Source: Gemmatimonadetes bacterium T265 (GTDB lineage Bacteria > Gemmatimonadota > Gemmatimonadetes > Gemmatimonadales > Gemmatimonadaceae). Taken from it: DNA of 64,000 nucleotides. Made by a program: the position numbers and the translations under genes. Below the pieces are notes generated by a model, which did not search any database, was not told the origin of the DNA, and worked only from the letters and a program-made list of their open reading frames with translations. This document shows positions 36,637 through 52,353 of this stretch, piece by piece. Position 1 is the stretch's first letter. Each line of letters starts with the position of its first letter. The stretch is taken from the NCBI GenBank assembly GCA_019973575.1, contig BPUI01000005.1, positions 1 to 64,000 on the forward strand, given 5' to 3'.

Positions 36637-38052
36637 CTACCGTCGGGCCCGCACGGTGAGGTAGGCGACGATCGCGTCGAGCTCGCCCGGGGCGAGGTTC
36701 GCGGCGTAGGCGGGCATGTTCCCCGCCCCGCCGAGGATGCGCGAGACGATCTGCGCGTGGTTCAGCCGCTCGGCCACGTGCGTCAGGTCGGGCCCGCGGA
36801 TGCCGCCCTCGGCGCCGATCATGTGGCAGTACTCGCACCCGCGGTCGTGGAACAGCTGCGCCCCCCGCACGACCTCCGCCACGGCCGGCGCGGGCGCTGC
36901 CATCGCCGGCGCCGCGACCGGGCGCACGCCGAAGCGCGGCGACCACGGCGCGCGGTCGCCGAGCACGGTGAGCCACGCGAGCCCCGCGACGACCACGCCC
37001 ACCGTCACCGGCGCCCACCGCCGCGCGCGCAGGTGCCGGCTCCCCCTCCCCCCGACGAACGGCAGGGCGAGGAGCGCCGCGGCCGCGGCGAGCGGCCCGA
37101 GGACCATCACCGGCGTCTCGAGCCGCCGCGGCAGCTCGGCGAGCGCCGCGAAGTACCAGAGGAAGTACCAGTCCGGCCGCGGCGACGCGTCGACGAGCGT
37201 CGGGTCGGGTGGGCGGCCTAACGGGACCGGGCCGACGGCGAGCGCGAGGCCGAGCACCGCGGCGACGACGAGCGCGCCGAACGCCGCGTCGCGCCAGGCG
37301 ACGTCGGGCCAGAACGGGCGCCCCTCGCGCGCGAGGAGGGCGCGGTACCACGCGCTGTAGCCCGGCTCCGCGGGCGCGCTGATCTCGGGCGGCTCGGAGA
37401 TGCCGTTGCGGAGCACGAGCCAGAGGTGCACGCCGACGAGCGCGAAGATCGCGGCCGGGAGCGCGAAGACGTGCGTCGCGAACGCGCGCGTGAGTGTCGG
37501 CGCGCCGAGCGTGGAGCCGCCGAGAATGAGGTGCACGAGCCACGGTCCGACGAGCGGGACGCGCGCCGCCTGCTCCGCCGCGACGACCGCCGACCAGATC
37601 GCGTCCTGGTCCCAGCGGAGGAGCTGCCCGGTGAAGGCCATCGCGAGCGTCGCGAAGAGCAGCCCCACGCCGGTCAGCCAGGCGATCTCGCGCGGGTACT
37701 TGTAGGAGGCGGTGAGGAAGACGCGCGCCATGTGGGCCGCGACGAGGACCACCATCGCCGACGCGCCGAAGTAGTGCAGCCCGCGCAGCACCCGCCCGAA
37801 CGCCGCGGCGTGCGTGATCCACTGCAGGCTCGGGTAGGCCTGCGCGGCGGAGGGGGCGTACACCGTGGCGAGCACGGTGCCCGTGACGACCTGGATCGCG
37901 AACGCGACAAGCGTCGCGCTCCCGAACACGTAGCGCCAGCCCGTGCGCGGCGGCACCGGGTGGCGCAGCATCCGCCCCGTCGCGGAGAGCAGCCCGCTCC
38001 GGTCCTCGATCCACGCGAGGGCGCGCACCCACGGGTTCTCGCCGCCGTTCAC
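36637..38052 (-). CDS. Cytochrome b with fused C-terminal cytochrome c domain
   Basis: 471 aa from GTG 38052. The N-terminal half has the four-helix b-type core with haem-ligand histidines ('VLRGLHYFGASAMVVLVAAHMARVF', 'ATHVFALPAAIFALVGVHLWLVLRNG') and the Qo-site PEWY motif appears as 'SPRPDWYFLWYFA' (P-D-W-Y). A C-terminal cytochrome c domain (about 385-470) has CEYCH and a distal Met in 'GNMPAY'. Together with the Rieske protein just upstream it forms a bc-type quinol:cytochrome c reductase in which cytochrome c is fused to cytochrome b. Confidence 0.9.
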   Translation of the reverse strand: MNGGENPWVRALAWIEDRSGLLSATGRMLRHPVPPRTGWRYVFGSATLVAFAIQVVTGTVLATVYAPSAAQAYPSLQWITHAAAFGRVLRGLHYFGASAMVVLVAAHMARVFLTASYKYPREIAWLTGVGLLFATLAMAFTGQLLRWDQDAIWSAVVAAEQAARVPLVGPWLVHLILGGSTLGAPTLTRAFATHVFALPAAIFALVGVHLWLVLRNGISEPPEISAPAEPGYSAWYRALLAREGRPFWPDVAWRDAAFGALVVAAVLGLALAVGPVPLGRPPDPTLVDASPRPDWYFLWYFAALAELPRRLETPVMVLGPLAAAAALLALPFVGGRGSRHLRARRWAPVTVGVVVAGLAWLTVLGDRAPWSPRFGVRPVAAPAMAAPAPAVAEVVRGAQLFHDRGCEYCHMIGAEGGIRGPDLTHVAERLNHAQIVSRILGGAGNMPAYAANLAPGELDAIVAYLTVRARR

Positions 38053-38060
38053 GCGATGCG

Positions 38061-38606
38061 TTAAGCGCGGGTGATCGGCAGCGGCCCGGCGTCGAGCAGC
38101 ACGCGGCCGCCCTCGACGCGCACCGGGTAGCGCGTGAGCGCGCGCGGCGGCGGGCCCGCGGCCACCGCGCCGTCCTCGGAGTACACGCCGCCGTGGCACG
38201 GGCACATGAACAGCTTCGCGCCCGCCACCCACCGCACCGGACAGCCGAGGTGCGTGCACTCGACAGCGAACGCGGTGAACTCCGCCGGCCCGGTCCGGCG
38301 CAGCCAGGCCGCGCTCCGCCCCGTCGCGCCGCTCCAGGCGAGCGGCGCGGGGTCGTCGAAGGCCACGCGCACCGTCGCGCCGACGGCGAAGTCGTCGACG
38401 CGCCCGACCACGCGCCACGCGCGCGTCGGCCGGCCGACGAGCGGCGCGAGCAGGAAGCCCACCGCGGGCACGGCGACCGCCGCCGCGGCGAGGCCGCCGA
38501 GCGCCGTGCTCACCCGCGCGAGAAAGCGGCGCCGCTCGGGCGAGGGCTCGGGTTCGCTCGGCGGCGCGAGGCGCGCGTCGCCCGGGGCGTCGGAAACGGA
38601 AGTCAC
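38061..38606 (-). CDS. Rieske iron-sulfur protein
   Basis: 181 aa. A twin-arginine-like N-terminus ('[32 protein letters not shown]') anchors the protein, and the 2Fe-2S site is complete: 'CTHLGCPV' and '[12 protein letters not shown]'. It transfers electrons from quinol at the cytochrome b Qo site to the cytochrome c domain. The GTG start lies 6 bases after the CtaG-cyt c gene and the stop 8 bases before cytochrome b. Confidence 0.93.
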
Positions 38607-38612
38607 ACGCGC

Positions 38613-39935
38613 TCAGTGCAGGGTGTAGAGGTACGCCGCGATGTCGCGCGCGTCTCGGTCGGTGACGCCGAGGTTGGGCATCGCGTTGCCGGGCACGACC
38701 GCCTGCGGCTGCTGGATCCAGTGCACGAGGTTCTCCTGCGTGTTCGGCAGCACCCCGGCCACGTAGGAGCGGCGCCCGAACGCGGTGAGCGGCGGCCCGA
38801 CCATCCCGCCCGCGCCGTCGACGCCCGGGACCACGTGGCACGACCCGCACCCGTAGGTCCCGAGCGCGCGCACCCCGCGGTCCGCGTCGCCGCCGTCCAC
38901 GCCGCGGAAGGGTGCGCCGCCGGTGTCGTCGCACGCCGCGGCCGCGGCGGTCGCGGCCGCGACGCACACGGCGGCGATCGACCACGCCGCCGCCCGCTCG
39001 CGGCGCGCGCCCACCGACGCGCGAGCGCGCTCCGCCCCCCGCAGCCAGCGCACGAAGAGTGCGCTCGCCACGCCGAGGTAGACGAGTCCCGCGGGCACCC
39101 ACATCACCACGCCCGCGAGCTGCTGGTCTTCGAGCGGGGTGAGGCCCCACGCCGCGGTGGTGCCGTAGTGGCCCGCGTACCACGGCCGCATGGCGAAGGT
39201 GAGCGCCGCGCCTAACAACCCCATCGGCACGCCGGCCGCGGTCACGTAGAGCAACCGCGCCCCGTCGCCGAAACGGCGCGCCGTAGCGCGGCCGGCGGGC
39301 CGAACCACCGGCCACCAGAAGAGCGCGGCTGCGCCTAACAGGGTCACGTGCTCCAGCGCGTGCACCGCGGGGCGGCGGAGCGCCCAGTCGTACGGCCCGG
39401 GCGCGTGCCAGAAGAACTCGCTCGCCAGATGGAGCGTCACGGCCACGCCCGGCGCGGCGACCAGCGCGACGCCGCCCCGCAGCGCGGGGTGTGCCACCCA
39501 CGCCCGCCCGACACGCCGACGCGCGCGCTCCGGCAGCGCCCAGAGCATCGCGAGCGCGGGCAGCCCCGCGGCGAGCAACGGCGCGGCGACGAGGATGAGC
39601 AGCAGATGCTGCCCCATGTGCGCCGTGAAGAGCGCGTCGGCCACCGCATCGAGTGGCGTGACGAGCGCGAGCGCGACGGTCGCGACCCCCGCGGCGTAGG
39701 CCCACGCGCGCCAGCGCGCGATGCCCCGCCCCACGCCCGCGCGCGCCCACGCGCGTCGCACGCCGGTCGCGTACCACAGGGCGCCGACCCCGAGCCCGGC
39801 AACGACGCCGGGGCTCGCCGGCCACGTGCGCCAGAGATCGTGCGGCTCGGGCGCGAGCCCGGGGTGCGCGTGCGCGGCCGCCGGCAATGCCGCAAGCGCG
39901 ACCGCGAGCGCCGTCGTAGCGGTCACAGCCCGCAT
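38613..39935 (-). CDS. ctaG: CtaG (caa3-type) protein fused to cytochrome c
   Basis: 440 aa from ATG 39935. A signal peptide (MRAVTATTALAVALAALPAAAHA) is followed by a polytopic caa3_CtaG domain ('HMGQHLLLILVAAPLLAAGLPALA', 'HLASEFFWHAPGPYDWALRRPAVHALEHVTLLGAAALFWWPVV', 'LTPLEDQQLAGVVMWVPAGLVYL'). CtaG assists copper insertion or assembly of caa3 oxidases. After a last membrane helix comes a class I cytochrome c domain (about 355-440, CGSCH; Met in 'GNAMPNL'). CtaG-cytochrome c fusion is unusual. The start overlaps the preceding gene by 13 bases. Confidence 0.87.
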   Translation of the reverse strand: MRAVTATTALAVALAALPAAAHAHPGLAPEPHDLWRTWPASPGVVAGLGVGALWYATGVRRAWARAGVGRGIARWRAWAYAAGVATVALALVTPLDAVADALFTAHMGQHLLLILVAAPLLAAGLPALAMLWALPERARRRVGRAWVAHPALRGGVALVAAPGVAVTLHLASEFFWHAPGPYDWALRRPAVHALEHVTLLGAAALFWWPVVRPAGRATARRFGDGARLLYVTAAGVPMGLLGAALTFAMRPWYAGHYGTTAAWGLTPLEDQQLAGVVMWVPAGLVYLGVASALFVRWLRGAERARASVGARRERAAAWSIAAVCVAAATAAAAACDDTGGAPFRGVDGGDADRGVRALGTYGCGSCHVVPGVDGAGGMVGPPLTAFGRRSYVAGVLPNTQENLVHWIQQPQAVVPGNAMPNLGVTDRDARDIAAYLYTLH

Positions 39936-40504
39936 GCCGGGACCACGAAGAGGGCGATCCCGTGCACCAGGCTCGCGATCACGAAGGTGACGCTCGTCAG
40001 GATGCCCGACATCGCCATGAACCGCGTGCGTCCCTCGCCGATCTCGAGCGCCGAGCGAACGTGCGTCGTTCCGCCAGTGTCGGCGTCCGCAGAACCACCG
40101 CCCTGCTGCGCGCCCTGCAGCGCGTCGGTCGTCGCGCCCCCGACCTCGCCGCGCGAGCGCGTCCACTCGCGGTGGGCGAAGAAACCGGCCCCGGTACCGA
40201 CCGCGACGGCCAGCACACTGACCACGAGCGCGAGCATCCACGTGCCGCCCACGTTCGGCGCGCCGAGGGGGTAGAGTCCGGGGTAGCACGCATGGGCCGC
40301 CACCCCGAAGTTGACGAGCGACTGCACGCTCCACGCGGCCGGCGCGGCGAAGATCCCGAACCACAGCGCCGCGTTGCTCACGTTCCCGCGCTGCGGCGCG
40401 GGGTGCCCGGCCGGCGACTGCTCCGCCTCCCGGCCCGCGCCGCTACCGCCGGGCGTCGGGCCGCTCTCGCGTTCGCGCGCACGTGGGCTCCCGCGTTCAG
40501 TCAT
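39923..40504 (-). CDS. Small membrane protein of the oxidase cluster
   Basis: 193 aa. A charged, Gly/Pro-rich N-terminus (about 45 residues) precedes three to four membrane helices ('ALWFGIFAAPAAWSVQSLVNFGVAAHACYPGLYPL', 'MLALVVSVLAVAVGTGAGFFAH', 'FMAMSGILTSVTFVIASLVHGIALFVVPAC'). No family name is certain. Such proteins sit beside CtaG and oxidase genes in similar clusters, so an accessory or assembly role is likely. 7 bases after the CoxI-III gene. Confidence 0.7.
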   Translation of the reverse strand: MTERGSPRARERESGPTPGGSGAGREAEQSPAGHPAPQRGNVSNAALWFGIFAAPAAWSVQSLVNFGVAAHACYPGLYPLGAPNVGGTWMLALVVSVLAVAVGTGAGFFAHREWTRSRGEVGGATTDALQGAQQGGGSADADTGGTTHVRSALEIGEGRTRFMAMSGILTSVTFVIASLVHGIALFVVPACGL

Positions 40505-40511
40505 CGGACGG

Positions 40512-43016
40512 TCACCGGAAGTGGGGCGTGAGGTAGAGCGCCGTGAACACCGCGAGCCACACCACGTCGACGAAGTGCCAGTACATGGCCGCGTTGGTCA
40601 CCGCGAGGCGGCGGTGGGCGGTGAAGTGCCCCCGCATCGCGCGCACGAGCACGACGAGGAGCATCACGACGCCGACCGCGACGTGCGCGCCGTGGAAGCT
40701 CGTGATCGCGTAGAAGAGCGAGGCCGAGGCGTCCTGGGTCGGGCCGAAGGTCTTGCGGCTGTACTCCAGCAGCTGCAGCCCGAGGAAGACGAGCCCCATG
40801 CCCGCGGTGATCGCGAGCCCGAGCTTGAGTCGCCCCTCGTCCCCGCGCCGCGCCCCGCGCTCGGCCCAGATCAGCACGCCGCTGCTCGCGATGAGGATCG
40901 CGGTGTTGACCCCGACGAGCTTCAGGTCCGGCGCGCCGTAGAGCGGCCACGGATTGGTCGACAGCGAGCCGAGGTAGAAATAGCTGAACAGGAAGTAGCC
41001 GAACAGCGCGGCCTCCGTCCCGATCACGCACGTCATGCCCCAGAAGCCGACCGAGTTGCTCCCGAGCCCGGACGTTGGGAGGTCACCGAACGGCGTGTCG
41101 ACGTCGCCGGTGTGGCGCCGCTGATCGGACGACGGCCAGAGCCACGCGACGACCGTGACGAGCGCCGCCGCCGCGGCGAGCCCGGCAAGCCACCAGACGC
41201 CGAACAGCAGCCCGTACGCGAGCGCCAGCAGCGCCGTCGCGAGCGCGAGCGGCGCGTACGAGTCGTCGGGCATGCGGAGCACGGCGGTGGGCTGCCCGTC
41301 GAGCGCCGAAGTCTCGAACGTTTCGCGCCCGTCGGCGAGCACGGGGCCGCGGTCGACGACAGAGCGCCCCGTGCCCTCCGTGCCCAACCGGTCCTCCCAG
41401 AGCGGATGGCGGCTCGCCACGGTCGGGATCACCGCGAAGTTGTAGGGCGGCGGCGGCGAGGTCGTCGCCCACTCGAGCGTCCCCGCGTCCCACGGGTTCG
41501 GCCCGGCGCGCTGGCCGCGGTAGCGGCTGACGACGACGTCGTAGAGGAAGACGAGCATGCCGGCCGCGAAGAGCGCCGCGCCCACGGTCTCGACGAGGTT
41601 CGCCGTCTCCCAGCCGAGCCCGGCCTCGTAGGTGTAGATGCGGCGCGGCATGCCGAGCATCCCGACGATGTGCATCGGGAAGAACACGACGTTGGTCGCG
41701 ACGAAGATCATCCAGAAACTCCACTTCGCGAGCGTCTCGTCCATCAGCCGCCCGGTGAACTTCGGGAACCAGTAGATGATCCCCGCGAGCACCGGGTACA
41801 CGTTGATCCCGACGAGCACGTAGTGCAGGTGCGCGACGACGAAGTACGTGTCGGTCAGCTGCCAGTCGAAGGGCACCGCGGCCGTCATCACGCCGTTGAC
41901 GCCGCCGATGACGAACAGCACGATGAAGCCGAGCATGAAGAGCATCGCCGCGGTGAGGCGCGGCCGTCCGTAGTACACGGTCGCGATCCACGCGAACGTC
42001 GAGACGCCGCTCGGGATCGCGATCACCATGCTCGCCGCGCCGAAGAACGACATCGAGAGCGGCGGCAGTCCGGTGGCGAACATGTGGTGCACCCAGACGC
42101 CGAAGCCCAACAGCGCCGTGACCACCGTCGAGAGCGCGACGAAGGTGTAGCCGACGAGCGGGCGTCGCGCGAACGTGGGCAGCGCGTCCGAGACGATGCC
42201 GATCGCGGGGAGCACGATCACGTAGACCCACGGATGCCCGAACATCCAGAACAGGTGCTGCCAGAGCAGCGGATGCCCCTGGCTGGCCGCGTCGTAGAAG
42301 TGGAAGCCGAAGCGCCGGTCGAGGTAGAGGAACGTCAGTGCCGCCGTGAGGGCGGGCACCGCCGCGAGGTTGACGAACGACGTCGACAGCGTCCCCCAGA
42401 CGATGATCGGCAGCCGGTTGAGCGACATCCCCGGCGCCCGCGTCGTGAACAGCGTGACGATGAAGTTGACGGCGCCGACGGTCGTCGAGACGCTCAGCAG
42501 CAGCAGGCCGAGCGCGTAGAAGTCGATGTTGTGGCCGGGGTTGTAGGCGGCGCCCGCGTAGGGCACGTAGTCGAACCACCCGGCGTTGGGCATCTGGCCG
42601 AGCAGGGTGCTCGTGTAGATGAAGATCCCGGCGGCGAGAAAGGTCCAGTAGGAGAGCGCGTTGAGGCGCGGGAACGCCATGTCGCGCGCGCCCAACATCA
42701 GCGGCCAGATGAAGTTGGCGAACCCCGACAGGATCGGCCCGGCGTAGAGGAAGATCATCGTCACGCCGTGCATGCTGAACAGCTCGTTGTACTGCTCGGG
42801 CCCGAGAATCGACAGGTTGGCCCGGGCGAGCTGCGCGCGCATCGCGAGCGCCTCGATTCCGCCGATCAGCAGGAAGACGAAGGCGGTGACGAGGTAGCGC
42901 TTCCCGATCGTCTTGTGGTCGACGCTGGAGAGCGAGCCGCGCCACCCGCGCGGCGTTTCCCACGTGCGCTGCAGGCGCTCGACCGGGGCGCGGTCGGCGG
43001 CGACGAGAGTGGCCAA
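40512..43016 (-). CDS. ctaDE: Cytochrome c oxidase subunits I+III fusion lacking key proton-channel residues
   Basis: 834 aa. Subunit I (about 1-560) has haem a ligands H83 and the 'VAHLHYV' pair, CuB ligands H261, H310 and H311, and cross-linking Tyr265 ('GHPWVYVIVLP'), so the redox centres are complete. The D-channel entry Asp112 is kept ('GARDMAFPRLNALSYW'). The residue equivalent to E286 is Trp263 (HPEVY becomes HPWVY) and the one equivalent to K362 is Ser339 ('IPSGVSTFAW'). Subunit III (about 600-834) is fused behind a linker ('NSVGFWGMTCVIGTEAALFGYFLFSYFYL'...'TSFHGAHVAVGVVMLL'). It reduces O2 with electrons from cytochrome c; proton pumping is uncertain. Confidence 0.93.
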   Translation of the reverse strand: MATLVAADRAPVERLQRTWETPRGWRGSLSSVDHKTIGKRYLVTAFVFLLIGGIEALAMRAQLARANLSILGPEQYNELFSMHGVTMIFLYAGPILSGFANFIWPLMLGARDMAFPRLNALSYWTFLAAGIFIYTSTLLGQMPNAGWFDYVPYAGAAYNPGHNIDFYALGLLLLSVSTTVGAVNFIVTLFTTRAPGMSLNRLPIIVWGTLSTSFVNLAAVPALTAALTFLYLDRRFGFHFYDAASQGHPLLWQHLFWMFGHPWVYVIVLPAIGIVSDALPTFARRPLVGYTFVALSTVVTALLGFGVWVHHMFATGLPPLSMSFFGAASMVIAIPSGVSTFAWIATVYYGRPRLTAAMLFMLGFIVLFVIGGVNGVMTAAVPFDWQLTDTYFVVAHLHYVLVGINVYPVLAGIIYWFPKFTGRLMDETLAKWSFWMIFVATNVVFFPMHIVGMLGMPRRIYTYEAGLGWETANLVETVGAALFAAGMLVFLYDVVVSRYRGQRAGPNPWDAGTLEWATTSPPPPYNFAVIPTVASRHPLWEDRLGTEGTGRSVVDRGPVLADGRETFETSALDGQPTAVLRMPDDSYAPLALATALLALAYGLLFGVWWLAGLAAAAALVTVVAWLWPSSDQRRHTGDVDTPFGDLPTSGLGSNSVGFWGMTCVIGTEAALFGYFLFSYFYLGSLSTNPWPLYGAPDLKLVGVNTAILIASSGVLIWAERGARRGDEGRLKLGLAITAGMGLVFLGLQLLEYSRKTFGPTQDASASLFYAITSFHGAHVAVGVVMLLVVLVRAMRGHFTAHRRLAVTNAAMYWHFVDVVWLAVFTALYLTPHFR

Positions 43017-43061: not shown

Positions 43062-44417
43062 TCAACGCAGCGTCTGCAGGTAGTGGACGACGGCGAGCAG
43101 GTCGTTCGGCGGGAGCGGCAGCGCGGGCATCCGTGCGCCGGGCTTCACGGTCTGCGCGTTGGCGACCCAGCCAGCGAGGTTGCCGGTGGTGTTGGGCAGG
43201 ATGCCGCCCGCGATCGTCGCGCGCGAAGCGACGTGCGTGAGGTCGGGCCCGACCCGGCCCAACGCGTCGCTGCCGCGCACCGCGTGGCACGCGCCGCAGT
43301 TGGCGAGGAACACCGCCTGTCCGGCCCGCGCGAGCGAATCCGCCGTTGGGCCCACCCCCGTCAGGCCCGCCGACGTCGGCCCCGCCCCCGCGGTCCCCCC
43401 CGCAGCCACGTACGTCGGCGCGACCGCCGGTGACGGCGTCGCCACCGGCGGGCCGAAGCCCGACACCAGGCCGGCCTCGTCGGCGCCGTTCACCGGCTGC
43501 GCGCGCGTGGCGGGCATCGACTCACCCACGGGCTGACTCGCGCGCCCGCTCGCGGCGCTCCGGATCGCGGCCGGCACAAGCGGCACGGCCGACGCCCGCT
43601 GCCCCGCGGCCCACCGCTCGAACTCGGCCGGCGGATCGGCGACCACGTACAGCGCCATCTTCGCGTGCTCCATCCCGCAGTACTCGGCGCACTGCCCGCG
43701 GTAGCGCCCCGCACGGCTCGCCTCCAGCCACATCTCGTTGATCTGCCCGGGAATCACGTCCGTCTTCCCCGCGAGCTCGGGCACCCAGAAGCTGTGAATC
43801 ACGTCGCCCGCGCGCAGCCGCACGCGCACCGGGCGGCCCACCGGGATGTGCAGCTCGTTGGCGGTGTAGAAAGCGTGCTCGGGAAGCGAGTCGTGGTACT
43901 GCGCCTCCCACCACCACTGGTGCCCCGTGATGTCGAGCGTGAGCGTGGGCACGCTCGGCGGGCGCGCCACGGCGCGCAACGTGCCCACGATCCCGACGAA
44001 CGCGGCGACGAGCACGACGATCGAGACGCCCGTGCCCCAGTAGATCCAGGGGAGCCCGCTGTCGCCGCCGTGCCGTCGCGTGCCGCCCTGCTTCGCGTCC
44101 GTGGCCGGTGGATGGGCGTCGTCCACGGCCAGCGCGCGGCGCGCCGAGGGGCGTTCGCGCCCGCCGCCCGCGTCCGGACGCCGCCGGAAGATCGCAACGA
44201 GCAGCACCGCCGTCACCACCACGACCACCGCCGCCGACACGCCCGTGAGCCACCAGCCGAGCGTCGCCTCCGCGTCCGCCGCCGGGCCGGCGGGTCGCAT
44301 GTAGCTCGGCGAGTTGGGCGCTCCACAGGCCGCGGCGGATGGGACCAGCGCGAGGGCGCCTAACGCACCCACTCGGTGCGATACGCGGGTCGTCGCGAGT
44401 CCGTCACTGGTCGGCAT
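43062..44417 (-). CDS. ctaC: caa3-type cytochrome c oxidase subunit II with fused cytochrome c
   Basis: 451 aa. A lipobox-like signal (...PSAAAC) suggests a lipoprotein. Two membrane helices follow, then the CuA domain with 'DVIHSFWVPELAGKTDVIPG' and 'CAEYCGMEHAKM' (both Cys, His and Met ligands). A Pro/Ala/Gly-rich linker of about 80 residues leads to a cytochrome c domain (CGACH, 'ARMPALPLP'). It accepts electrons and passes them via CuA to subunit I. The start overlaps the upstream cytochrome c gene by 14 bases. Confidence 0.93.
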   Translation of the reverse strand: MPTSDGLATTRVSHRVGALGALALVPSAAACGAPNSPSYMRPAGPAADAEATLGWWLTGVSAAVVVVVTAVLLVAIFRRRPDAGGGRERPSARRALAVDDAHPPATDAKQGGTRRHGGDSGLPWIYWGTGVSIVVLVAAFVGIVGTLRAVARPPSVPTLTLDITGHQWWWEAQYHDSLPEHAFYTANELHIPVGRPVRVRLRAGDVIHSFWVPELAGKTDVIPGQINEMWLEASRAGRYRGQCAEYCGMEHAKMALYVVADPPAEFERWAAGQRASAVPLVPAAIRSAASGRASQPVGESMPATRAQPVNGADEAGLVSGFGPPVATPSPAVAPTYVAAGGTAGAGPTSAGLTGVGPTADSLARAGQAVFLANCGACHAVRGSDALGRVGPDLTHVASRATIAGGILPNTTGNLAGWVANAQTVKPGARMPALPLPPNDLLAVVHYLQTLR

Positions 44418-44985
44418 TCTGCGCCCCGCGCAGCGTCCGCGCGCCCGTCGTGTCCTCGTCGCCGAGGTCGCCCTGCTTGCCGCGATCGGCGAGCGGCGCC
44501 GGGAAGGTGCCGTGGAACGACTCGATGTAGGTCACGAGCTTCCAAAGCTGCTCGGGCGGGAGCGCGCGCCCCCACGCCGGCATCCCCTGCGGGCGTCCCT
44601 CCCAGAGCGTCTTGTAGATCTCCGCCGGCGAGCCGCCGTAGCGCCAGTAGCGGTCACGCAGGTTGGGGCCCATCCCGCCCTTGAGGTCGTAGCCGTGGCA
44701 GTCGGCGCAGTTCATCTGCTGGTACAGCGCGCCGCCCTCGCGTGCGGCGGCCGAGTCGCCCTCGTATGGGTTGCGGATCGTGTTCGCGAGGGTGTTGGGC
44801 GTCGCCCCCGCCCAGTCGCCTAACGGCACGCGCGCGAGCGTGCCCTCGTCCGGGATGGCGTTGGTGCCGCGACCCGCGCCGCGGATCTCCTGCTCGTGGC
44901 TGGTGTTGTCGCAGGCGGCGAGGGCCGCGCCGAGCGCGGCCGCGGCGGCGAGCGCCGTCGCGCGAAGAACGGGCGTGCGCATCAT
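44404..44985 (-). CDS. Lipoprotein monohaem cytochrome c
   Basis: 193 aa. The signal peptide ends in a lipobox (...GAALAAC25). One CADCH haem motif ('YQQMNCADCHGYDLKGGMGPNL') and a Met ligand in 'GRPQGMPAWGRALPPEQLWKLVTYI' define a class I cytochrome c. It lies 4 bases downstream of the PQQ dehydrogenase gene and overlaps subunit II, so it is the likely electron carrier from dehydrogenase to oxidase. Confidence 0.92.
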   Translation of the reverse strand: MMRTPVLRATALAAAAALGAALAACDNTSHEQEIRGAGRGTNAIPDEGTLARVPLGDWAGATPNTLANTIRNPYEGDSAAAREGGALYQQMNCADCHGYDLKGGMGPNLRDRYWRYGGSPAEIYKTLWEGRPQGMPAWGRALPPEQLWKLVTYIESFHGTFPAPLADRGKQGDLGDEDTTGARTLRGAQNADQ

Positions 44986-44989
44986 CCGG

Positions 44990-47026
44990 TCACCGGTGGC
45001 CTGTCCCCGAACCCGCCGGGCTGCCCGTGCCGCTGCCCTGCTGCTGGCCGGGAAGGGACGGAACGGCGGCGATGTTCTCGGGGAGCGTGAAGACGTAGAG
45101 CGTGCCGCCGCGCGGCGGAAACCCCTTCTTCGACTGCAACGTCATGGCGAAGCCGCCGACCCCACTCATCACGGCCAGGTACTGATGGCCGTCCGGCCCG
45201 CGGTAGGTCATCGGCGCGCTGTGGATCCCCGAGCCCAGCTTCTGCGCCCAGAGCACCTGCCCGGTGCGCGCGTGCACCGCGCGGAGCCAGCCGTCTGAGG
45301 TGCCGTAGAACACCAGGTCGCTCCCGGTCACGAGTGGGCCGCCGCCGACGTAGAACGCCTCGGGGACCGCCCACGCGCGCCGCCCCGCCGCCGCATCCCA
45401 GGCGATCAGCTCGCCGTAGTTGCCGCCGGGCCCCGCGTGGCGCGTCATGTCGGCGCCCCAGTACGGCGTCCCGGCGATGTAGCTCGCCTCGCGGCCCTTG
45501 TAATCCATGCAGGCGTTGTTCACGGCCGCGTAGAACAGCCCCGTGCGCGCCGAGTAGGCGGCGGGCTGCCAGTTGGTGACGCCGATGTCGGGCGGGCAGA
45601 TGTTGCGCACCCAGCGCCCGGCCGGCACCGTCTCCTTTTCGGGGTTGACGATCGGCTGCGCCGTCTTCGGGTCGATCCCGGTCGCCCAGTTGAGATAGCC
45701 GAACGGCTTGGCGACGAGCACCTCGCCCGTCGCACGGTCGATCGTGTAGGCGAAGCCGTTGCGGTTGAACTGCACCATGACCTTGCGCGTCTGCCCGTTC
45801 ACGGGCAGGTCGGCGAGGATGTTCCAGTTGACGCCGTCGTAGTCCCACTCGTTGTGCGGCGTGAACTGGAACGCCCACCGGGCATAGCCCGTGGCCGGGT
45901 CGCGGGCGAACACGGCGCTCGTGAAGAGGTTGAGCCCCTGCCGCTGGTCGGCGTTCCACGGGCCCGGGTTGCTCGTGCCGTGGTAGACGAGGTCGAGGTC
46001 AGGGTCGTATGAGATCCAGCCCCACACCGCGCCCGCGCCGTGCCTCCACGCGTCGGCGGGCCAACTCGTCGCGCCGAGGTCCTTGCCCTTGAGCCAGCTG
46101 TAGAACGGCTTGTAGGTGTCGTTGATGCGGACGAGCGAGTCGGGGCCGGTGCTGAACGCGCGCCACAACTCCTTGCCGGTGTGCACGTCGAGCGCGGCGA
46201 CCCAGCCGTGCGCGCCCATCTCGCCGCCGGAGTTGCCGACGTAGACCCGGTCGCCCACGACGAGCGGCGCCATGGTCATCGTGATTCCGTCCTCGACGTT
46301 CGCCATCTTGGTGCGCCACACCTCGTGCCCGGTCGCGGTGTCGACCGCGACGGTGTGGTCGTCGAGGAGGTTGTAGATGAGCTTTCCGTCGGCGATCATC
46401 GCGCCCCGGGTGACCGCGTCGCAGCACGCCTTGCCGACCGCCGTCGGCGACGGGTCGGGCTCGAAGGTCCACTTGACGGGCGCGCCCGGCTGCGTCAGGT
46501 CGAGCGCGTACGCTCGGTCCGGAAACGGCGCGACGACGTACATCGTGTTGCCGGCGACGAGTGGCGTGGCCTCGTGCCCGTGCGGGACGGCAGTCGAGAA
46601 CGAGAACGCGGTTTTGAGCCGGCCGACGTTCGCGGGCGTGATCTCGGTGAGCGGACTGTAGCGCGTCATCCCGTAATCGCGCCCCGTGGTGAGCCAGTTG
46701 CCCTCCGTCGCGCCCGGCGGGTACCACCGCGCGGCGCGGGTGAGCATCGCCGGGTTGGCGACGTCGCCGGCCGCCAACGGCGCGCGTCCGCTCGGGGGCA
46801 AAGCGTTCGCCGCGTCGAGGCCCGCAGCTTTTGGTTTGCCGCATCCGGTGAACGCGACGAGCGCGCCGCCCACGGCGAGCACGGCGGAGCGCCCCGCACG
46901 CGCGGCGCGGCGCGGTGTGCGATGTGGTGTGTGATGCGGTGCGCGGGGGACGGCGGCGGCGGAACGGGGCGACGACGGCATCGCAGCGGGGCGAAAGAAG
47001 TCGGGACGAGCGATGGGGGGATGCAT
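44990..47026 (-). CDS. PQQ-dependent alcohol dehydrogenase with lanthanide-type metal site
   Basis: 678 aa (ATG 47026; ATG 46981 is an alternative). A lipobox (...VAFTGC62) is followed by an eight-bladed propeller with tryptophan-docking-like repeats. The vicinal disulfide C201-C202 ('GKACCDAV') that stacks on PQQ is present. The catalytic Asp395 is followed two residues later by Asp397 ('HNEWDYDGVN'); in the methanol/ethanol dehydrogenase family an extra Asp there marks lanthanide-dependent enzymes (XoxF, PedH), while calcium enzymes have Ala or Ser. Periplasmic alcohol or aldehyde oxidation with electrons to the adjacent cytochrome c is expected. Substrate open. Confidence 0.9.
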   Translation of the reverse strand: MHPPIARPDFFRPAAMPSSPRSAAAVPRAPHHTPHRTPRRAARAGRSAVLAVGGALVAFTGCGKPKAAGLDAANALPPSGRAPLAAGDVANPAMLTRAARWYPPGATEGNWLTTGRDYGMTRYSPLTEITPANVGRLKTAFSFSTAVPHGHEATPLVAGNTMYVVAPFPDRAYALDLTQPGAPVKWTFEPDPSPTAVGKACCDAVTRGAMIADGKLIYNLLDDHTVAVDTATGHEVWRTKMANVEDGITMTMAPLVVGDRVYVGNSGGEMGAHGWVAALDVHTGKELWRAFSTGPDSLVRINDTYKPFYSWLKGKDLGATSWPADAWRHGAGAVWGWISYDPDLDLVYHGTSNPGPWNADQRQGLNLFTSAVFARDPATGYARWAFQFTPHNEWDYDGVNWNILADLPVNGQTRKVMVQFNRNGFAYTIDRATGEVLVAKPFGYLNWATGIDPKTAQPIVNPEKETVPAGRWVRNICPPDIGVTNWQPAAYSARTGLFYAAVNNACMDYKGREASYIAGTPYWGADMTRHAGPGGNYGELIAWDAAAGRRAWAVPEAFYVGGGPLVTGSDLVFYGTSDGWLRAVHARTGQVLWAQKLGSGIHSAPMTYRGPDGHQYLAVMSGVGGFAMTLQSKKGFPPRGGTLYVFTLPENIAAVPSLPGQQQGSGTGSPAGSGTGHR

Positions 47027-50702: not shown

Positions 50703-52353
50703 GCGGCGCGTGGAGCCCGGACGCGACCGCGAGGTACTGCCGGCCCGCGACCCCGTAGCTCACCACCCCGCCCCCGATCGGCTGTCCCGTGTTCGTGCGC
50801 CACCGCTCGGCCCCGCTGCGCGCATCGAAGGCGAGCACGTTGCCGACGAGGTCCGCGGTGAACACGAGCCCGCCCGCCGTCGCGAGCACCCCGGCGACGA
50901 GCGGGGTCGGCGACGCGTAGCGCCAGCGGACCGCGCCGTCGTCCGCGTCGACCGCCGTCAGCCAGCCGCGTCCCTGGTCGCGCGGGTCCATGTGGCCAAA
51001 CGGCTCGAGCAGCCGCGCGCTCCCCGTCCACGGAATTCCGACCTTCCCCTTCAGGCGTTCCGGGGGCTCGATACGCACCGTGGTGCACCAGTCGACGGCG
51101 CCGACGTAGAGCAGGTTGGGCCCGGGCGCGTACGCCGGGCCGTTCCACTCGGTGCCGCCCTGCACGCCCGGACAGAACCGCGTGCCGGCAGGGGTCAGCG
51201 GCGCGTCGCCGTTCTGGAGCGTGGTGGTCGGCGTCGCGAAGCGTCGCCCGCCACCCTCGAGCAGCCCGTACACGTGGCCGTCCTTGCCCGCGACCGCCAC
51301 GGTCGCCGTGCCGCCCGCGGTCGTGAGCAGCAGCGGGGCCGCGGCGACGTCCCAGTCGTGAAAGTCGTGTGAGAGGAGTTGCCACGCGCGCCGGAGCTCG
51401 CCCGTCGCGAGGTCGAGCGCGACCACGGAATACGTGTGCAGGTTGGTGCCAGGCCGGTCCGCGTCCTGAAAGTCCGGCCCCGCGTTCCCGGTCGGGACGT
51501 AGAGCAGTCCGCGCAGGGTATCAATCGTATACGAGGTCCACGTCGTCGCCCCGGTGCGCGGCGTGCGATCGGTCTCGGCCGGCCACGTCGCCGCGGCCGC
51601 GCCGGCGCGCGGGATCAGCGGCGTGCTCCAGACGCGCGCGCCGGTGCGCACGTCGAACGCCATGATCCGCCCAACGACCCCGTAGTTGTCGCCGCCGGCG
51701 TTGCCGAGGTAGACGAGGCCGCGCCACGCGACGGGCGCGGCGGGAAACGTCTCGCCCAACGCGACGTCGCCCGCGCGCACGTTCCACACCTCCTCACCCG
51801 TGCGCGCGTTCAGGGCGTAGACCCGGCCGTCGTTCGCGCCGCGAAAGAGGCGCGGACCGTCGGGGGTGTCGAGGTACGCGACGCCACGGTTGGTCTTCAG
51901 GTCGTAGTCGGGCTTGGGACGGTAGTCGTAGCGGTGCGACCACCGGAGGGCGCAGGTGGCGGCGTCGATCGCCCAGGTGCGGGTAGCGCTCGTCACGTAA
52001 AGCACGCCCGCGACGACGACCGGACCGGACTGCATCGCGGTCCGCTCACCGAGCGCGGCGGTGCAGGTCGGGCGGAGCGTGGCGACGTTCGCCGTCGTGA
52101 TCTCGGCGAGCGGCGAGTAGCGCGTCCCGGTCGGCGGGCCGTTGTAGGCGGGCCAGTCGGCCGCGGGGTCGACCGCGGTGCGCGCGAGCGGGGTGGAGAA
52201 GGCGGGACCGCGCGTCGTCGCGTGGTGGCCTCGAGGGCGCGGGTCGTCGGGCCGCTTGAGGAAGCTCGCGAACTGCAAGTACTGGCATCCGGCGAGCGGG
52301 AGCACGCCGGCGAGCGCGGCGACGCGGGCCAGGGAACGGCGAAAGGACGGCAT
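50647..52353 (-). CDS. PQQ-binding propeller dehydrogenase, calcium-type site
   Basis: 568 aa. A lipoprotein signal (...VLPLAGC23) and a beta-propeller of PQQ repeats ('PLAEITTANVATLRPTCTAALG', 'GRVYALNARTGEEVWNVRAG', 'RIMAFDVRTGARVWSTPLI', 'NVLAFDARSGAERWRTNTGQPIGGGVVSY'). The catalytic Asp is in 'HDFHDWDVAAAP' (D335) with Ala337 two residues later, the calcium-type pattern. No vicinal Cys-Cys was found, unlike the enzyme at 44990-47026. It may be a quinoprotein dehydrogenase of unknown substrate. Its upstream region carries copy 2 of the 42-base element found upstream of the rhodopsin. Confidence 0.82.
   Translation of the reverse strand: MPSFRRSLARVAALAGVLPLAGCQYLQFASFLKRPDDPRPRGHHATTRGPAFSTPLARTAVDPAADWPAYNGPPTGTRYSPLAEITTANVATLRPTCTAALGERTAMQSGPVVVAGVLYVTSATRTWAIDAATCALRWSHRYDYRPKPDYDLKTNRGVAYLDTPDGPRLFRGANDGRVYALNARTGEEVWNVRAGDVALGETFPAAPVAWRGLVYLGNAGGDNYGVVGRIMAFDVRTGARVWSTPLIPRAGAAAATWPAETDRTPRTGATTWTSYTIDTLRGLLYVPTGNAGPDFQDADRPGTNLHTYSVVALDLATGELRRAWQLLSHDFHDWDVAAAPLLLTTAGGTATVAVAGKDGHVYGLLEGGGRRFATPTTTLQNGDAPLTPAGTRFCPGVQGGTEWNGPAYAPGPNLLYVGAVDWCTTVRIEPPERLKGKVGIPWTGSARLLEPFGHMDPRDQGRGWLTAVDADDGAVRWRYASPTPLVAGVLATAGGLVFTADLVGNVLAFDARSGAERWRTNTGQPIGGGVVSYGVAGRQYLAVASGLHAPLTWMRTSSEATVVVYALP

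Follow-up and report, generated by a model that had tools for sequence, protein, structure and literature searches.

A fused caa3-type oxidase of Gemmatimonadetes bacterium T265 belongs to a multi-phylum clade with tryptophan at the E286 position and no K-channel lysine

Residues E286 and K362 stand at the centre of most models of proton gating and proton loading in cytochrome oxidases, and their mutants are nearly inactive in model enzymes. Type A enzymes have been sorted by their channel residues, and of 1216 sequences just 4 were without the channel residues of their own type; these were placed in type B (PMC3084760). Other classifications rest on operon structure and tree (PMC4013037; PMC6431628). 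A COX1-COX3 fusion was described for operon type a by Degli Esposti in 2014 (PMC4013037), in whose text the word "proton" is absent. No report on the proton-channel state of type a-II oxidases was found in the open-access papers searched.

The DNA analysed here, called the window, is a stretch of 64,000 nucleotides from Gemmatimonadetes bacterium T265 (contig BPUI01000005.1, positions 1 to 64,000; assembly GCA_019973575.1). Its oxidase features are collected in Table 1. The oxidase reading frame opens with TTG, and GGAGG lies a short way 5' of the start. Pfam placed COX1 (PF00115) at residues 37-481 and COX3 at residues 659-829, and the match to NCBIfam TIGR02891 (CtaD/CoxA) scored 683.5 against a cut-off of 670.75. 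The AF2 model had a mean pLDDT of 95.2. It superposed on the R. sphaeroides oxidase at 1.0-1.2 Å across about 500 residues, and in it the modelled COX4-like helices (588-604 and 608-626) are followed by five COX3 helices. By sequence and fold the product is a heme-copper oxygen reductase of the A family. The first-pass annotation had recognised the oxidase subunit I and had left the COX1-COX3 fusion unmentioned.

Table 1. Features of the oxidase locus in window coordinates.
Feature	Position	Strand	Basis
Cytochrome b fused to cytochrome c (bc/b6f-type complex)	36637..38040	(-)	Pfam, profiles
Rieske iron-sulphur protein	38061..38606	(-)	Pfam, profiles
Caa3_CtaG assembly factor with C-terminal cytochrome c, start approximate	38613..39950	(-)	Pfam
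Small membrane protein, recurrent after COX3	39923..40504	(-)	Without match in Pfam and NCBIfam
COX1 fused to a COX4-like segment of two helices and to COX3; caa3-type subunit I+III, 834 aa	40512..43016	(-)	Pfam, NCBIfam, HMMER, AF2
Ser339 codon, R. sphaeroides K362 position	42000..42002	(-)	Alignment
Tyr265 codon, Y288 (active-site tyrosine), kept	42222..42224	(-)	Alignment
Trp263 codon (TGG), R. sphaeroides E286 position	42228..42230	(-)	Alignment
Asp112 codon, D132 (D-channel entry), kept	42681..42683	(-)	Alignment
Tyr91 codon (R. sphaeroides V110, helix II), clade-specific hydroxyl, candidate relay close to the upper end of the D-channel	42744..42746	(-)	Proximity inferred from helix position
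COX2 with CuA site and fused C-terminal cytochrome c	43062..44417	(-)	Pfam, profile match
COX2 TM2, K-channel entrance Glu absent, aligned Gly121 codon	44055-44057	(-)	Alignment
c-type cytochrome, probable carrier between dehydrogenase and oxidase	44404..44985	(-)	Pfam, profiles, locus comparison
PQQ-dependent methanol/ethanol-family dehydrogenase, motifs ACCD and WDYDGVN	44990..47026	(-)	Pfam, profiles, motifs

Residues were numbered with R. sphaeroides chain 1m56_A as the ruler. All six metal-binding histidines (H83, H261, H310, H311, H396 and H398) and Tyr265 aligned to this chain, E286 fell on Trp263 within HPWVY and K362 on Ser339. The same two columns were filled by the E286 and K362 of E. 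coli CyoB, and HMMER alignments to 2yev, 6adq and 7rh5 agreed with these assignments. The close superposition of the AF2 model on the R. sphaeroides oxidase makes the register secure. F259-G260 stands before His-Pro in helix VI, so that the Tyr-Ser pair of A2 enzymes is absent. The first-pass annotation had claimed as much on every one of these points, namely complete redox ligands, loss of the E286 and K362 equivalents, a reliable alignment and no Tyr-Ser substitute, and each was borne out.

Set against the published types, the position of the Glu that closes the D-channel in Type A1 of the Pereira scheme (E278/E286) holds Trp263, and the K-channel lysine of Types A1 and A2 (K362/K354) is replaced by Ser339 and occurs in no examined clade member. 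The helix VI Tyr-Ser that defines Type A2 does not precede His-Pro, and the lower D-channel residues that are missing from Type B are in place. The adjoining gene encodes a CuA-bearing subunit II, as judged from the COX2 profile and a CAEYCGMEHAKM motif. The active-site tyrosine, missing or replaced in nitric oxide reductases (PMC8756737, PMC3084760), is present as Y265. By the channel-residue scheme of PMC3084760 the protein fits neither A1 nor A2.

When the conserved ionisable columns of the clade were listed, no clear Lys or Glu substitute was found at a neighbouring position. Only E55, Y91 and Y134 were new conserved ionisable columns in the predicted membrane helices, and none of the three was a clear stand-in for the lost Glu or Lys. 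E55 (helix I, window 42852-42854) is a near-invariant Glu in the clade and aligned with the quinone-site Asp75 of E. coli bo3; Glu was also found at this position in 16% of enzymes with both E286 and K362 (E/K enzymes).

A search for FGHPWVY as a DNA pattern, in one genome per species, found at least 118 stretches, and 97 of those listed were COX1 of the Trp type. Trp-type loci with the motif inside a COX1 reading frame number at least 97 and occur in at least five phyla; those listed belonged to Pseudomonadota (at least 63), Acidobacteriota (at least 15), Gemmatimonadota (at least 13), Actinomycetota (at least 2) and Myxococcota (at least 2), and among the matches listed one Trp-type locus came from a bin labelled Chloroflexota. 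Within Gemmatimonadota the GHPWVY pattern was present in 23 of 298 genomes. All 105 clade members had Trp or Phe at position 286 (Trp in 98%, Phe in the remainder) and Ala, Gln, Ser, Gly or Thr at 362, never Lys, and they kept the metal ligands and the active-site tyrosine at about 100%. Non-Trp sequences with E286 carried Lys (45), Gln (15) or Ile (1) at 362. Trp or Phe at 286 together with Lys at 362 was not observed among 176 sequences.

Both trees were built with the two trait columns masked. The Trp enzymes formed one clade in the 107-row tree (SH-aLRT 95) and in the 50-row tree (support 100/97), where a single origin was recovered in 100% of bootstrap trees; their sister in the 50-row tree was a group with E286 and Gln362 (99/97), hereafter the E/Q sister. 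The Trp and E/Q clades were joined (100) and nested among E/K enzymes, which indicates that K362 was lost first and that E286 was replaced by Trp once, later. Position 362 is Gln in early Trp branches and Ala, Ser, Gly or Thr in later ones, so Gln362 gave way to other residues after the change to Trp. The nearest relatives of the window enzyme in the 107-row tree also make Gemmatimonadota its probable phylum. As each change had one origin, the joint pattern of Trp without Lys records history and does not amount to many independent tests. Placement in an oxidase tree was one of the checks proposed in the first-pass annotation, which had treated the enzyme as an oddity of one protein; the tree and the scan reveal instead a clade spread across phyla. 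With two more loci of the same genome and at least 97 elsewhere alike, the loss of both residues is not chance.

The mouth of the K-channel is the Glu at the start of the second helix of subunit II (E-x-x-W-T). The window COX2, which the first-pass annotation had not considered, reads GLPWIYWG at this site. The entrance Glu was present in 24 of 24 COX2 sequences beside K362 enzymes, in none of 8 beside the E/Q sister (about five of them independent, as several rows overlap within one gene, and two rows gapped) and in 1 of 24 alignable sequences beside the Trp clade (three of 27 rows were gapped). The sole match, at locus L089, lies in a different sequence context. At the level of residues these alignments show that the K-channel has been removed in both subunits of the Trp clade, and they support the view that the window oxidase has abandoned proton delivery by the K-route.

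Below Trp263 the lower D-channel is complete (Y41, N101, D112, N119, S122, S177, T178 and N184; N119 corresponds to R. sphaeroides N139 in the 1m56_A alignment), and the Type A1 set of Tyr35, Asp124, Asn131, Asn199, Asn113, Ser134 and Ser193 in P. denitrificans numbering is present. Weighted frequencies in the Trp clade, in R. sphaeroides numbering, were 100% each for Y33, D/E132 (D 95%, E 5%), N139, S200 and N207, 97% for Ser/Thr142 and 78% for Asn121, which was lost in part of the basal Trp subclade; 99% conservation was attained by only 15% of positions in the clade. The exit-side residues R481, R482, D407 and W172 were nearly invariant in all groups. Such a complete, near-invariant D-channel and exit side argues for a modified single-channel path and not for decay. 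Retention of D112, noted at first pass, therefore extends to the whole lower channel, and the accompanying claim that proton delivery and pumping must be altered or lost is borne out in part: the alteration stands, the K-route being gone, while the D-channel and exit residues are kept.

The residue at R. sphaeroides position 110 is Tyr in 93% and Phe in 7% of the Trp clade, and Phe in the E/Q sister. Because about 7% of members carry Phe, Tyr91 cannot be the sole essential proton donor everywhere, and it was rejected as a universal one. Further clade-specific polar residues (R. sphaeroides positions in parentheses) are Ser97 (116), Thr209 (232), Ser/Thr211 (234), Thr378 (401) and Asn405 (428). 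The E/Q sister (loci L161, L152, L170, L171, L174, L175 and others) has Glu286 in 100% and Asp132 in only 36% of sequences; Asn121 is lost, Asn207 is mostly Glu, a new Glu is invariant at position 198, and Glu is frequent at 116 and 207. The D-channel of this sister group appears to be differently rewired.

The T265 genome encodes four heme-copper oxidases. Three of them, the window enzyme included, are of the Trp/Phe type, the two paralogs lacking the Lys and reading HPWVY or HPFVY; the fourth is canonical (HPEVY...K). The HPFVY paralog (L003, G000:C5:71649-73298) lies about 29 kb away, and its residue at R. sphaeroides position 201 is Gln. Each of the 30 genomes checked contained one or more other PF00115 genes, in most cases a canonical COX1, and none had the Trp type as its only oxidase, so the Trp-type enzyme looks like an additional oxidase. 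In Methylobacter tundripaludum SV96 (L055, G010:C1:260275-263173) the Trp-type COX1 is interrupted: it contains an internal stop, and its 3' part lies about 1.5 kb farther along.

The window genes form a recurrent cluster. It opens with the PQQ dehydrogenase and the c-type cytochrome, continues with COX2-cytochrome c and COX1-COX4-COX3, and closes with the small membrane protein and CtaG-cytochrome c. Rieske and cytochrome b-c genes (36637-38606) follow directly, the latter being one of two cytochrome b matches in the genome; among the 30-40 further Trp-type loci whose downstream DNA was long enough, none had counterparts of the two genes. The adjacent-Cys ACCD and the WDYDGVN motif of the dehydrogenase form a lanthanide-type alcohol dehydrogenase signature, WDYDGVN presumably being the lanthanide-type Asp pair. 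Window 50713-52125 gave another PQQ-propeller-like match, a distant one that is 29% identical to the dehydrogenase. A PQQ dehydrogenase also opens both Trp/Phe-type paralog clusters of T265 and the clusters of the closest orthologs (74% identity). The annotation of a Methylocystis plasmid gives the same gene order and adds a quinoprotein-associated binding protein; in Methylocella, a PQQ dehydrogenase is annotated near the Trp-type cluster. By tblastn, 11 of the 39 Trp loci that had 4.2 kb or more of upstream DNA carried such a gene there. The corresponding figure was 8 of 13 for E/Q loci, where 3 kb or more was required, and none of three for E/K loci, a sample too small for comparison. The linkage to PQQ dehydrogenase is far from universal among Trp loci. 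The cluster is the published COX operon type a-II (PMC4013037).

We lean, if slightly, towards a working CuA-dependent A-family O2 reductase that is fed by the D-channel alone, serves as an electron sink for PQQ dehydrogenases and has reduced or no pumping. The sequence comparisons demonstrate the components on which this reading builds: an intact active site, the loss of K362 and of the entrance Glu, the lower D-channel, a single origin and the gene cluster. All protons would enter by the D-channel and would pass or skirt Trp263 via a relay of water and hydroxyls, for which Tyr91, Ser97, Thr178, Thr209 and Ser/Thr211 are candidates. Pumping is probably reduced or absent because no carboxylate is there to split protons between the active site and the pump site, and energy would be conserved mainly by charge separation. 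The enzyme may act as a second oxidase that drains periplasmic PQQ dehydrogenases via cytochrome c, and in the window electrons may also arrive via cytochrome c from the adjoining bc-type complex.

It is rather unlikely, though it deserves weight, that the enzyme pumps normally and that an alternative relay of Tyr91, Ser/Thr hydroxyls and ordered water beside the Trp indole stands in for E286. The whole lower D-channel and the exit residues R481, R482, D407 and W172 are conserved, a hydroxyl arrives at position 110 with the loss of E286, as Phe in the E/Q sister gives way to Tyr, and A2 enzymes with their Tyr-Ser pair are a precedent for loss of the Glu; however, Tyr91 is not universal, and a second uptake route disappeared with the K-channel. 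Judged by residues, the loss of both classical positions would favour reduced pumping, whereas the near-invariant exit residues would favour pumping. It is doubtful that a single D-entry path ending at Trp, with no E286, Tyr-Ser or K-channel, nonetheless pumps by a relay unseen in studied oxidases.

An enzyme derived from an oxidase that is non-respiratory or uses another substrate, such as a nitric oxide reductase, a sensor or an assembly scaffold, is improbable. Two catalytic-path residues have been lost, and a deranged COX1-like gene is known from Acetobacter, though without metal ligands (PMC10715153); yet the CuA subunit, the CtaG assembly factor and the cytochrome c fusion are all kept here. 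The listed nitric oxide reductases have E, N, Q or D in place of the active-site tyrosine that is kept here (PMC8756737, Table A4), and eNOR, bNOR, sNOR, gNOR and nNOR are related to the B family (PMC11388526). On the tyrosine and the family the nitric oxide reductase reading was rejected. Drift of the proton residues in a decaying paralog after duplication is very improbable, since against the presence of another, usually canonical, oxidase in the same genomes and the one interrupted Methylobacter copy stand the motif within a COX1 reading frame at no fewer than 97 loci in at least five phyla, Trp in 98% of members (otherwise Phe), conserved ligands and D-channel, and three Trp/Phe-type copies in the T265 genome.

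The clade has lost first the Lys and then the Glu with its D-entry under strict selection, and its natural enzymes allow the need for these residues to be tested. Members occur in the culturable genera Paraburkholderia, Methylobacter, Nitrosomonas, Sphingomonas and Methylocella, which makes such a test practical. Replacement by Trp or joint loss of E286 and K362 in this clade was not found reported in the open-access papers searched, nor was an activity, spectrum or H+/e- value found for any member. Mutant structures were among the structure-search matches of the AF2 model. In plasmid records Trp-type genes are labelled plain ctaD, and the pumping yields assumed for organisms with a Trp-type oxidase may be wrong.

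Among known enzymes, the aa3 oxidases of R. sphaeroides and P. denitrificans (A1) share the fold, the active site and the lower D-channel with the window oxidase, but they have E286, K362 and the subunit II Glu, all three of which it lacks. The caa3 oxidase of Thermus thermophilus (A2, 2yev) was the best PDB sequence match and has the same COX1+COX3 fusion and no Glu at 286; it keeps Tyr-Ser in helix VI and the K-channel Lys, whereas the window oxidase is without both. CoxMNOP of Bradyrhizobium, Sinorhizobium and P. pseudoalcaligenes KF707 is likewise an accessory aa3-type oxidase, with a promoter that is very weakly active in KF707 (PMC5492768). A related oxidase of Sinorhizobium terangae has GHPEVY with Gln for K362, as in the K-less sister; judged on this relative, the CoxMNOP type keeps E286, unlike the window oxidase. 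Operon type a/a-II (PMC4013037), named "A1 oxidases, subtype a" by PMC6431628, has likewise a long COX1 extended by a COX4-like segment or a COX1-3 fusion, and also shares the five-helix COX3, the COX2-cytochrome c fusion, the PQQ dehydrogenase and Caa3_CtaG. Such enzymes were filed as A1 in 2019 (PMC6431628), whereas the window oxidase has Trp at the E286 position and no K362.
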